Positions 23,335 to 26,646 of a DNA stretch of 48,468 nucleotides are shown one piece after another. The position numbers and the translations under genes were made by a program. Numbering within the stretch: the first letter of the stretch is position 1; every line of letters begins with the position of its first letter. The notes beneath the pieces were generated by a model. The model had not been told where the DNA came from, did no database searches, and saw only the letters and a program-made list of their open reading frames with translations. Origin of the DNA: Nesterenkonia massiliensis (GTDB lineage: Bacteria > Actinomycetota > Actinomycetes > Actinomycetales > Micrococcaceae); contig NZ_HG005167.1 in NCBI RefSeq assembly GCF_000455245.1, forward strand, positions 1 to 48,468, in the 5' to 3' direction.

Positions 23335-24402
23335 ATGTCAGCAGCCGAAGTGAACCATCTGGGCCAGCTGGGCCAGGGGCAGCCGCCAGAAGCCGCAGCC
23401 GGCTCAGCAGCCGAGCCGTTGCGGACACCGCTGGAGCAGCCGCTGGCCTTCACGCTGCGGGTCCCGGCCACCAGCGCCAACCTTGGACCCGGATATGACT
23501 CCATGGGCTTGGCTCTTGAACTACGTGATGAGATCGAAGTAGAGGCACGTCCGCGGAAGAACCCGGCGCAGCCGGCGGTGGACGTCGTCGTCGTTGGTGA
23601 AGGTGCCGCTGATCTGCCTACCGATGCTTCGCATCTGGTGGTCGCCGTCGTGGAGAAGATCCTCGCCGCCAAGGGCTACTCCCTTCCTGATCTGAGCGTC
23701 CGGGCCACCAACGTCATTCCGCACTCGCGGGGACTGGGTTCATCGGCTGCGGCCATCGTGACGGCCGTGCTCACCGCAGACCAGCTGCTGCGTGCCTCTG
23801 CAGAAGGCATAGGTCTCAGCGATGATGAGAAGCTGCAGATCGGTTCACGGATTGAAGGACACCCTGATAATTATGTGCCCGCCTTGCGCGGGGGAGTCGG
23901 TATCTCCTGGGAGAGCACACCTGAGGGCGACGGCGCCCGCCGTTTCCGCACCGCTGCGCTTGAACCGCACCCGGAGCTGACGGCGATAGTTGCCATCCCT
24001 GGTTTTGTGCAGTCCACCGAAGCCGCCCGCGGGTTGCTCCCGCCAACGGTCTCTCATACCGCGGCCGCCCGCAACAGCGCCCGTGCCGCCCTTCTGGTAC
24101 ACGCCTTGACGCAGGACCCCGACCTGCTGCTGGAGGCCACCGAGGATTCGCTGCACCAGGAGTACCGACGGCCGGCTTTCCCCGCTGCGATGGCGCTGGT
24201 GGACTCGCTGCGGGCTGCGGGATTCCCCGCTATGATCTCCGGTGCCGGCCCCACTGTGCTGACCCTGGTCACCACAGAGCGAGCCGCGGCGGTGAGCCAG
24301 CATATTGAAGCCTGGGGACGGCAGAGAGACACCGCAGATACTTTCCGACCGGTCAATCTGCTTCTGGCCCGTTCAGGTGCTACAGTGGAGTCAAGCCCCT
24401 AG
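23335..24402 (+). CDS. thrB: Homoserine kinase
   Basis: 355 residues of the GHMP kinase family. The ATP loop is PHSRGLGSSAAAIV, with the conserved NLGPGYDSMG near the start and GAGPTVLTL near the end. It phosphorylates homoserine for ThrC. The first 40 residues are a Gln/Glu/Ala-rich extension not usual in the family, so a start further in is possible. However, the ATG at 23335 follows closely on thrC and has a GGAG nearby. Last gene of the threonine cluster. The rho leader begins directly after it. Confidence 0.94.
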   Translation: MSAAEVNHLGQLGQGQPPEAAAGSAAEPLRTPLEQPLAFTLRVPATSANLGPGYDSMGLALELRDEIEVEARPRKNPAQPAVDVVVVGEGAADLPTDASHLVVAVVEKILAAKGYSLPDLSVRATNVIPHSRGLGSSAAAIVTAVLTADQLLRASAEGIGLSDDEKLQIGSRIEGHPDNYVPALRGGVGISWESTPEGDGARRFRTAALEPHPELTAIVAIPGFVQSTEAARGLLPPTVSHTAAARNSARAALLVHALTQDPDLLLEATEDSLHQEYRRPAFPAAMALVDSLRAAGFPAMISGAGPTVLTLVTTERAAAVSQHIEAWGRQRDTADTFRPVNLLLARSGATVESSP

Positions 24403-24584
24403 TTAGCGCAGACGCAGATCTGCGAGGGGATCATTGCAGTTCTCCCATGCAGAGCGCATCACTTCTTATGGAGAACTGGTCATGCAATCCCGACGGTCAC
24501 ATCTGAGAAGCCGTTGAAGAGACCGCAGGCCGAGATCATGCACATGTTCAGCGCGCCTGCCCGACGAGGGAGAAGGAAACCTTC
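24403..24584 (+). promoter_or_regulatory. Structured leader of rho with a competing anti-SD segment
   Basis: Bases 24438-24445 (AGTTCTCC) are perfectly complementary to 24470-24477 (GGAGAACT), with an ATGC/GCAT hairpin nested in the loop. The core of the same segment (TTCTCCC, 24440-24446) is also complementary over seven bases to GGGAGAA (24568-24574), which is the ribosome binding region of rho. A short Arg-rich peptide frame (24482-24517) uses the first GGAG as its own site. A 12-base palindrome CGCAGATCTGCG lies at 24413-24424. The pairings are visible. A switching role is inference. Confidence 0.5.
24482..24517 (+). CDS. Candidate 11-residue Arg-rich leader peptide upstream of rho
   Basis: ATG to TGA, 12 codons, encoding MQSRRSHLRSR. 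Four of the 11 residues are Arg, written CGA, CGG, AGA and CGT, of which CGA and AGA are likely rare in a genome of this kind. GGAG lies eight bases before the ATG, a good spacing, and this GGAG is part of the stem that closes the upstream hairpin. The peptide ends 67 bases before the rho start. Short frames arise by chance, so this needs conservation in relatives to be believed. A second overlapping 12-residue frame (24468-24506) has no ribosome binding site. Confidence 0.35.
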   Translation: MQSRRSHLRSR

Positions 24585-26552
24585 GTGACAGACACCATCA
24601 CTGAGGCACAGCCTCAGGACGCCGACAAGGCCCCCAGGAACTCTGAAGCCCCCAGTGGAGGACTCGCGGGTCTTAAGCTGGCACAGCTGAAGGCCCTGGC
24701 ATCCCAGCTCGGCATTGCTGGCTCATCCCGGATGCGTAAATCTGACCTGGTTGAGGCGATCTCTGCCCACCAGCGCGGTGGCGCTGTAGCCGACCGCAAG
24801 AAGACGGCACCCGCTGAGAAGACGGAGGCCGAGAAGAACACCGCTCCGAGGGCCGACGCTCAGCAGGACCGTGCTGATAAGGCCGTCACCGAGACGAACA
24901 GTACTGGGACGAGCGCCGGTGAGAAGAACAACGCCGAAAAGACCTCCGAGTCCAACGGATCCGCTGAGCAAGCTTCTCAGGACCAGTCGCCGCGTCGCGG
25001 CGGACGCAACAGCCGCAGCAATAACGCTGAGGGCGAGCAGGAGCGCGGTCAGGACGAGAAGTCCGGGCAGAAGGGCTCCGAAGACGATTCCGAGGGGGGT
25101 CAGTCGCGCAATAACGGCCGCAACCGGCGCAACCGTGACCGCCGCAATGACGACTCCCAGCAGGGTGAGCGCCAGAACAACGAGCGCCATAACGACCGGC
25201 AGAACAATAATGACCGGGCGTCTCAGGACAATGACGGCGACGGCGAGGACGAGGGCCGCGCACGTCAGCGCAATGACCGCAACGACCGCGGCGATCGGGG
25301 TGATCGCGATGACCGCCGCAACCGTCGTCGTAACCGCAATGAGCGCAACCGTCGCGGTCGCACTCGCGGCCCGGAGCACGATGACACCGAGGTCACCGAG
25401 GACGATCAGCTGATCCCGATCGCCGGCATCCTGGACGTACTCGACAACTACGCTTTTGTGCGCACCTCCGGCTACCTGCCCGGTCAGAATGACGTCTATG
25501 TGGCGCTGGCCCAGGTGAAGAAGTACAACCTTCGCAAGGGTGATGTGGTCACTGGCTCCATCAAGGCCCCGCGTGAGGATGACAAGCCGAATAAGCGGCA
25601 GAAGTTCAACGCTCTGGTCAAGGTGGACAAGGTCAATGGCCGTCCCGCTGAGTCCAACACCGATCGCGTGGAGTTCGGCAAACTGGTCCCGCTCTACCCG
25701 CAGGAGCGTCTGCGTCTGGAAGGCGGCGATCCCAAGGCCGTCGGCCCGCGCGTCATCGACCTGATCGCCCCCATCGGCAAGGGTCAGCGTGGCCTGATCG
25801 TCTCCCCGCCGAAGGCCGGTAAGACCATGATCTTGCAGGCCGTGGCCAACGCGATCAAGACCAATAACCCAGAGGTGCACCTGATGATGGTGCTCGTTGA
25901 CGAGCGCCCCGAAGAGGTCACCGACATGCAGCGCACCGTTGATGGTGAGGTCATCGCCTCCACCTTCGACCGTCCCGCCGATGACCACACCACTGTGGCC
26001 GAACTGGCCATTGAGCGTGCCAAGCGCCTGGTGGAGCTGGGCAAGGACGTCGTCGTGCTGTTGGACTCCATGACCCGCCTGGGCCGCGCCTACAACCAGG
26101 CCGCTCCGGCTTCGGGCCGTATCCTCTCCGGCGGTGTTGACGCCTCTGCGCTCTACCCGCCGAAGCGCTTCTTCGGTGCTGCCCGCAATATCGAAAACGG
26201 CGGCTCACTGACCATTTTGGCCACCGCTCTGGTAGAGACCGGCTCCAAGATGGACGAGGTGATTTTCGAGGAGTTCAAGGGAACCGGCAATATGGAGCTG
26301 CGGCTGTCCCGTCAGCTGGCAGATAAGCGGATCTTCCCGGCAGTGGATGTCACCGCGTCCTCCACCCGCCGCGAAGAGGCTCTGCTCTCCCCGGAGGAAG
26401 TCAAGATCATGTGGAAGCTGCGCCGGGTGCTCTCAGGCCTGGACCAGCAGCAGGGACTGGAACTGCTCATGAACAAGCTCAAGGAAACTCAGTCCAATGC
26501 TGAGTTCCTGATGCTGATCTCCAAGACCACCCTCGGCGAGAACGGCAAGTAG
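24585..26552 (+). CDS. rho: Transcription termination factor Rho with large Arg/Asn/Asp-rich insertion
   Basis: 655 residues. An N-terminal SAP-like Rho_N domain (about 27-65) is followed by a low-complexity, highly charged insertion (about 66-265) that turns strongly Arg/Asn/Asp-rich towards its end. Then come the S1-like RNA-binding domain ([15 protein letters not shown]...), the P-loop PPKAGKT (408-414, Lys413), the [11 protein letters not shown] motif and the R-loop region. Rho is a hexameric RNA helicase that ends transcription. Insertions of this kind are known from high-GC actinobacteria and let Rho act on structured RNA. GTG start with AAGGA seven bases upstream. A strong hairpin closes the gene. 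Confidence 0.97.
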
Positions 26553-26560
26553 CTACGCAT

Positions 26561-26603
26561 CAGAAGCCCGGGCCGAGCATACTGCTCATGGCCCGGGCTT
26601 CTG
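26561..26603 (+). terminator. Hairpin terminator between rho and prfA
   Basis: CAGAAGCCCGGGCC pairs perfectly with GGCCCGGGCTTCTG (14 base pairs), with a small GAGCA/TGCTC stem in the loop. It starts eight bases after the rho stop. There is no T tract, so termination may be partial or need other factors. It could also protect the 3' end. Confidence 0.75.
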
Positions 26604-26646
26604 CCGTATCAGCGAAGACCACCACACTGATTAAGGACGTATCTGC

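Follow-up and report, generated by a model that had tools for sequence, protein, structure and literature searches.

Background

The locus analysed here raises the question of whether the region immediately upstream from rho in Nesterenkonia massiliensis is a regulatory RNA and, if it is, by which route it would act on rho. The window, by which we mean the whole 48,468-nt stretch of DNA that was analysed, carries rho at 24585-26552 (655 aa, GTG start, as given in the ORF list). We considered as the rho leader the 182 bases at 24403-24584, from the thrB stop codon to the rho start codon, the thrB ORF ending at 24402. All the features described below lie on the forward strand.

A first-pass annotation of the same DNA had proposed a translational attenuator in this leader. 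Precisely, a shared segment, TTCTCCC (24440-24446), was supposed to pair either with the ribosome-binding site of a candidate leader peptide or with GGGAGAA (24568-24574) ahead of rho, ribosomes on the peptide deciding between the two, and an ATGC/GCAT hairpin was placed in the loop of the first pairing. These letters and positions are correct, and what had to be established was which of the proposed elements are conserved.

Rho level sets the cell's tolerance of unwanted transcription, and a conserved leader RNA at rho would offer a defined control point. Searches of open-licence papers brought up no description of a leader that controls rho in actinobacteria.

Leaders compared

Matches to rho were obtained in 29 of the 30 genomes of the window's genus and in all the 120 genomes drawn from its family, and a further 80 named loci were taken from GTDB genomes. 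Each leader was cut from the thrB stop codon to the rho start codon and incomplete loci were dropped, which left 28 leaders of the genus (the window's own included), 102 leaders from other genera of the family and 65 of the named set.

Hairpins P2 and P3 across the family

Two hairpins stand ahead of the rho ribosome-binding region: P2 (24491-24516), with the stem CGACGG(T)/(G)CCGTTG and a loop holding ATCTGA at 24501-24506, and P3 (24525-24560), GCAGGC...GCCTGC, which ends 12 bases ahead of the AAGGA core of the rho ribosome-binding site. Alignment A1 was made of 18 leaders chosen by hand from different genera for a clear P2, and covered 13 pairs. In this alignment 85.5% of the cells were paired and the covariation was 0.720, against 0.240 after shuffling and at most 0.176 in slid registers. 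Changes on both sides were seen in 5 of 5 pairs of P2 and in 6 of 8 pairs of P3, a count equalled by 32 of 500 shuffles, and part of the evidence for P2 comes from leaders that were picked for their TCTG loop.

A model built from A1, here R1, matched 96 of 100 family loci at E <= 0.1 and all the 28 genus leaders at E < 1e-6, much of its score being due to conserved letters of the ribosome site (two Streptomyces leaders scored 13.8 and 18.5 bits, the window 39.0). The 96 family leaders fitted to R1, 88 of them distinct, form alignment A2. Here 87.0% of the cells were paired against 55.4% after shuffling, and the covariation was 0.625 against 0.169, to be read with the fact that a model-fitted alignment leans towards its own structure; the number of pairs changed on both sides in A2 was equalled by 125 of 500 shuffles. 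P2, helix 1 of the two alignments, had 93.3% (A1) and 86.1% (A2) of its cells paired, with all of its five pairs changed on both sides. P3, which is helix 2 of both A1 and A2, is free to vary in sequence and keeps the pairing alone.

Folding energies that involve no fitting to a model were computed for 83 dereplicated family leaders. The mean z was -1.75 for P3, with 30 of the 83 below -2, while coding controls taken from rho and thrB gave -0.10 and -0.13, with 1 of 83 below -2 in each case. The signal of P2 was weaker (mean z -0.71, 8 of 83 below -2), and two stretches farther upstream in the leader had mean values of -0.22 and -0.24.

Structure of this kind could be passive, P1 (a stem described below), P2 and P3 stabilising the leader or holding a ribosome standby site open with no sensing involved. 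The freedom of P3 to change its letters, as long as it pairs, would fit such a role, as would its position, since 24 bases separate its end from the start codon, which is thus left uncovered. However, a recurring loop motif and a P1 5′ arm that also forms a local hairpin exceed what stability needs, and we regard a purely passive role as unlikely.

The loop motif and its distribution

The motif ATCTGA, found in the loop of P2 in the window, is the commonest 6-mer in the region from -105 to -28, being present in 40 of 130 leaders when related ones are counted singly. The shorter TCTGA occurs in the same region in 59 of the 130 and is absent from 71. Its location varies, since it may be in the loop of P2, in that of P3 or in both, and the stems around (A)UCUGA change freely, as judged from 16 hand-chosen hairpins. 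Five leaders (L191, L197, L202, L162 and L176) have TCTGA twice, at about -79 and about -38, that is, at the positions of P2 and P3, as if doubled.

We also ran R1 on genomes of the order with stricter filters and a threshold of E <= 0.01, and 72 of 149 were matched. Of the 22 R1 loci of the order with a readable rho start, 19 come from beyond the family, and TCTGA was present in the last 110 bases in 7 of the latter. Those seven leaders belong to three other families (f14, f17 and f7), and the f7 one, in which the motif is at -95, is perhaps unrelated.

In the window's own genome the rho leader is the only clear match of R1 (E 5e-8), the next best having an E of 0.45. A second model, R2, which holds the hairpin only, gave matches at E <= 3 in 35 of 41 family genomes. 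Thirty of these matches were inspected, one per genome. Rho leaders accounted for 6 of them and 24 lay elsewhere, and a crude ORF scan of the inspected places found no recurring neighbour among the latter, so that no regulon was seen. The P2 of the window (24491-24516), whose loop is longer, is not recovered by R2, which has 23 weak matches in the window and none at these positions.

One or two hairpins with an (A)UCUGA loop before rho might form an operator, on which an RNA-binding protein would act to repress or protect the rho mRNA. Such an operator would account for a motif that is so common, that sits in either loop or both (as in L191, L197 and L202), that reappears in 7 of 19 leaders from other families of the order, and whose surrounding stems change freely. 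It accords poorly with the lack of TCTGA in 71 of the 130 leaders; moreover, no candidate protein was found, and no second gene recurs among the 30 inspected R2 matches, although this would be expected of a general regulator. We consider a protein-bound operator doubtful, slightly more so than the passive role.

Searches against known families gave nothing that would name the element. The Rfam scan at gathering thresholds had no match in the window or in eight relatives, relaxing the threshold for the leader brought up no credible family, and a plasmid DNA search had no result.

Stem P1 and the nested hairpin H1

Within the genus the leader holds a further stem, P1, which is the first of the two pairings proposed earlier. 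In the window it joins AGTTCTCC (24438-24445) to GGAGAACT (24470-24477) by eight Watson-Crick pairs. The 5′ arm lies mostly within block a (24439-24450), a 12-base block with a homologue in the 28 genus leaders; the 3′ arm, block c, doubles as the Shine-Dalgarno-like run of the candidate upstream ORF (uORF). In the alignment of the 28 leaders the shared segment lies in a block whose letters are GTTCTTTCGCGC in one large subclade and, in the window, GTTCTCCCATGC; the partner block, immediately ahead of the next hairpin, is GCGCGAAAGAA and TATGGAGAAC, respectively.

We counted standard pairs in P1 over 12 columns and 24 distinct arm pairs from the 28 leaders, the partner arm having been placed by hand, differently from the aligner's placing, in 10 of the 28. 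In register, 231 of 286 cells were paired, against values from 65 of 214 to 144 of 238 when the arms were slid by 1-3 columns. When partners were shuffled among leaders, 0 of 2000 shuffles reached 231 (mean 210, maximum 226). Judged by these shuffles, the bulk of the pairing is shared consensus, and the excess above them is covariation.

Standard pairs with both sides changed were found in 9 of the 12 columns (a1-a3 and a5-a10). Examples are CTTTTGCG with CGCAAAAG in L093, CTTTCGTG with CACGAAAG in L085, CTTCCGCGC with GTGCGGAAG in L091 and GCTCTCC with GGAGAGC in L098. A parsimony count on the rho protein tree (columns a4-a11) gave 9 double compensatory branch events in register against 0-3 in registers slid by 1-2, and some of the 9 may be one event, because in this tree the window stands apart from L098 and L110 by a split that is only modestly supported. 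Pair-breaking branch events in the same count were 12 in register against 6-15 in the slid registers. By partition-function folding, P1 had a mean probability of 0.85 in the window; among the free leaders the predicted probability was at least 0.48 in 17 of 28 and at most 0.12 in the other 11. The first pairing is kept by compensatory changes across the genus.

The nested ATGC/GCAT hairpin, here H1 (24447-24459, ATGC-AGAGC-GCAT, with arms at 24447-24450 and 24456-24459), also belongs to the selected RNA structure. Its homologous forms are GCGC-GAGTT-GCGC in relatives and GTGC-GCAAT-GCAC in L085. Paired cells were 24 of 28 over 7 distinct arm pairs, against 2 of 21 in either slid register (L092, gapped, was left out). 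In most relatives the 5′ arm of H1 overlaps that of P1, so that the two compete. All the three segments involved depart jointly from the common form in L085 (GTGC, GCAC, CACG) and in the window together with L098, and these joint changes are the best hint of a two-state element, confined to one or two lineages.

P1 was also considered as a transcription terminator and rejected, since the window has no T run after it; T runs after H1 are present in some relatives. We noted, too, that the coordinated GTGC/GCAC/CACG changes of L085 match what a two-state stem predicts.

Alternatively, P1 would be no RNA stem at all but an inverted repeat in DNA, each arm being a half-site for a transcription factor. 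The palindromic look of arms such as CTTTCGCGC and GCGCGAAAG speaks for this, as does the folding, by which P1 is favoured in no more than 17 of the 28 leaders. Nevertheless, the two blocks are 13-15 bases apart in the window's group and 66-147 bases apart in the others, and several P1 columns hold G-T combinations, which pair in RNA and not in DNA, so that a DNA repeat is very improbable.

The proposed pairing with the rho start and the candidate leader peptide

GGGAGAA, the second partner proposed for the shared segment, had been taken as the rho ribosome-binding region. By letters and spacing the core of that region is AAGGA (24573-24577), and GGGAGAA is a purine run just upstream from it, with an overlap of 2 bases. 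Four of the 28 genus leaders have a 7-base match between the shared segment and this run, namely the window and, in a different register, L105-L107. In these three it is the homologous block itself that matches the rho Shine-Dalgarno core over 7 bases (TTCCTTC with GAAGGAA). In L098 and L110, whose leaders are the most similar to that of the window, the shared segment has changed T to C and its P1 partner A to G, the rho site is unchanged, and 6 pairs remain between the shared segment and the rho site.

Partition-function folding gave the second pairing a probability of 0.000 in the free window leader and of 0.001-0.002 with a ribosome-sized block on the partner. When the partner arm was blocked, the predicted probability that the segment pairs at the rho start was 0.16-0.69 in L103-L107 and 0.17 in L094, and in L105 it was 0.70 even in the free fold. 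A competition of this general type is thus conceivable in the subclade L103-L107.

Chance complementarity to purine-rich sites had been the main doubt attached to the proposal. Among 3000 dinucleotide shuffles of the window leader, 3.9% had a 7-base match to the rho purine run and 0 had the additional 8-bp partner. The double match is hence rare by shuffling in the window, yet only its first half is conserved.

The candidate uORF (24482-24517, MQSRRSHLRSR) lies inside a longer TTG-started frame in the ORF list. Fourteen of the 28 leaders have a start codon at the homologous place, namely three from the window's group, nine from a second subclade, L088 and L090; none is there in the nine leaders L100-L107 and L109. 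The peptides of the window's group are MQSRRSHLRSR in the window (ATG), MQFRR* in L098 (GTG start) and MQFLRRLLTRR* in L110 (TTG start). In the second subclade, eight of the nine leaders have M[E/K]TVG[R/C]I*, the stop codon of which falls within the AUCUGA loop, and L086 has an unrelated frame; in L088 and L090 an ATG opens a long frame that extends into rho. Start and sequence thus vary across the genus, and the peptides are unrelated between groups.

Among the 28 genus leaders, then, covariation supports P1 and gives no support to the second pairing: relatives keep rho and lose both the peptide and the second pairing with no compensating change, which is clearly not the case for P1. Some points would favour an attenuator in which ribosomes on the leader peptide open P1 and the released segment then shuts the rho start. 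The 3′ arm of P1 provides a good Shine-Dalgarno run, followed by ATG in the window and by GTG and TTG in L098 and L110, respectively; the segment is predicted to pair with the rho start in L103-L107 once the arm is blocked, and it matches the core over 7 bases in L105-L107. Against it, neither start codon nor peptide is conserved, the 7-base rho match is confined to 4 of 28 leaders, the predicted probability of the second pairing in the window is no higher than 0.002, and the segment change in L098 and L110 is compensated in P1 and not at rho. A peptide-driven switch at the rho start is unsupported, and we hold it extremely unlikely.

Proposed function

The comparison shows the rho leader to be a structured RNA, with P1 and a competing H1 in the genus and with P2 and P3 in much of the family. 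Its compensatory stems stand at one position relative to one gene, which, on the evidence of the alignments, makes it a conserved structured leader RNA. Cis-regulatory RNAs are typically recognised by a conserved fold in the leader of a single gene, and for this reason we read the leader as a new candidate cis-regulatory RNA of rho, with a role in autoregulation likely.

In the reading that we prefer, to which we assign a probability of about 0.5, the 182-base leader would act in cis as a structured RNA and would set the amount of rho mRNA that is completed or translated, most likely through autoregulation by Rho. Rho loaded on the leader would cause early termination of transcription, and P2 and P3, with (A)UCUGA recurring in their loops, would be a putative site at which either the loading of Rho or the entry of ribosomes is adjusted. 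The peptide would be an accidental frame that spans P1 and P2.

A bolder proposal, which we put forward only tentatively and consider rather improbable on present comparative evidence, is that of an undescribed RNA family before rho in the window's family and in some related ones, whose one or two (A)UCUGA-loop hairpins, adjacent to the ribosome site, would bind Rho or a dedicated partner, and to which the genus would have added a P1/H1 switch that sets the Rho level.

The Pseudomon-Rho motif (RF01720) is positioned before rho. It is a conserved RNA structure obtained by comparative genomics, listed as cis-regulatory and named for Rho (PMC2864571), and in this it resembles the present candidate leader RNA. 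It differs in being listed for Pseudomonas only; moreover, the best RF01720 score in the window's own genome was 21.1 bits against a cut-off of 45, none of the 7 places listed was in the rho leader, and no RF01720 match was seen at E <= 10 in 24300-24700. As the motif listed for Pseudomonas is a different one, a conserved leader RNA at rho here would point to more than one origin of structured rho leaders.

Autoregulation by Rho is our first guess because of what is described in enterobacteria. In E. coli, rho is autoregulated within its own leader, and in Salmonella the small RNA SraL pairs with the rho 5′ leader and protects it from premature termination (PMC6582626, PMC12691595). The E. coli attenuator is alike in that rho is controlled in its own leader, and differs in that it is described, in the accessible part of the source, without a folded conserved element (PMC6582626). 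SraL likewise has the rho 5′ leader as its RNA target, whereas it works by base pairing in trans (PMC6582626, PMC12691595). In actinobacteria, ilvB1 and whiB7 are described as uORF-based attenuators, with a short leader ORF and regulatory folding (PMC13236596). Of these, ilvB1 is described with a terminator and with a uORF that is conserved; in the rho leader, in contrast, the peptide is not conserved, and simple consensus scans found no terminator-like site, nor a promoter-like one, in the window.

Other features of the locus

A C-rich, G-poor region in the leader would be expected of a Rho-autoregulated rho, and a C excess upstream of rho was considered as a rut signature, but the window's own leader does not have it (50 C, 52 G). 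Among the 130 leaders, C exceeded G upstream of the last 62 bases of the leader in 111, and the best 78-base C excess of the leader was greater than that of thrB in 117 and than that of rho in 98, some C excess being present at the start of the rho coding sequence too.

Downstream from rho, 94 bases (26553-26646) separate it from the next ORF, which looks like prfA. In actinobacteria rpmE is often located between rho and prfA, and the 94-base gap is too short for this gene of ribosomal protein L31.

In the 5′ part of the window leader there is a palindrome, GCAGATCTGC (24414-24423, in the region 24413-24424), which contains the same ATCTG word as the loop of P2; it is absent from the other 129 family and genus leaders.

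The ribosome-binding region of rho in the window, GAAGG-AAA-CCTTC (24572-24584), stands directly before the GTG. The pattern GAAGG N0-4 CCTTC RTG has 1 place in the window's own genome and the reversed control pattern has 2, so that the single place says little by itself. Having the form GAAGG-N-CCTTC right before the start codon, the Shine-Dalgarno region of rho could pair with itself, and GAAGG N0-4 CCTTC is found ahead of the start in 143 of 194 actinobacterial leaders.
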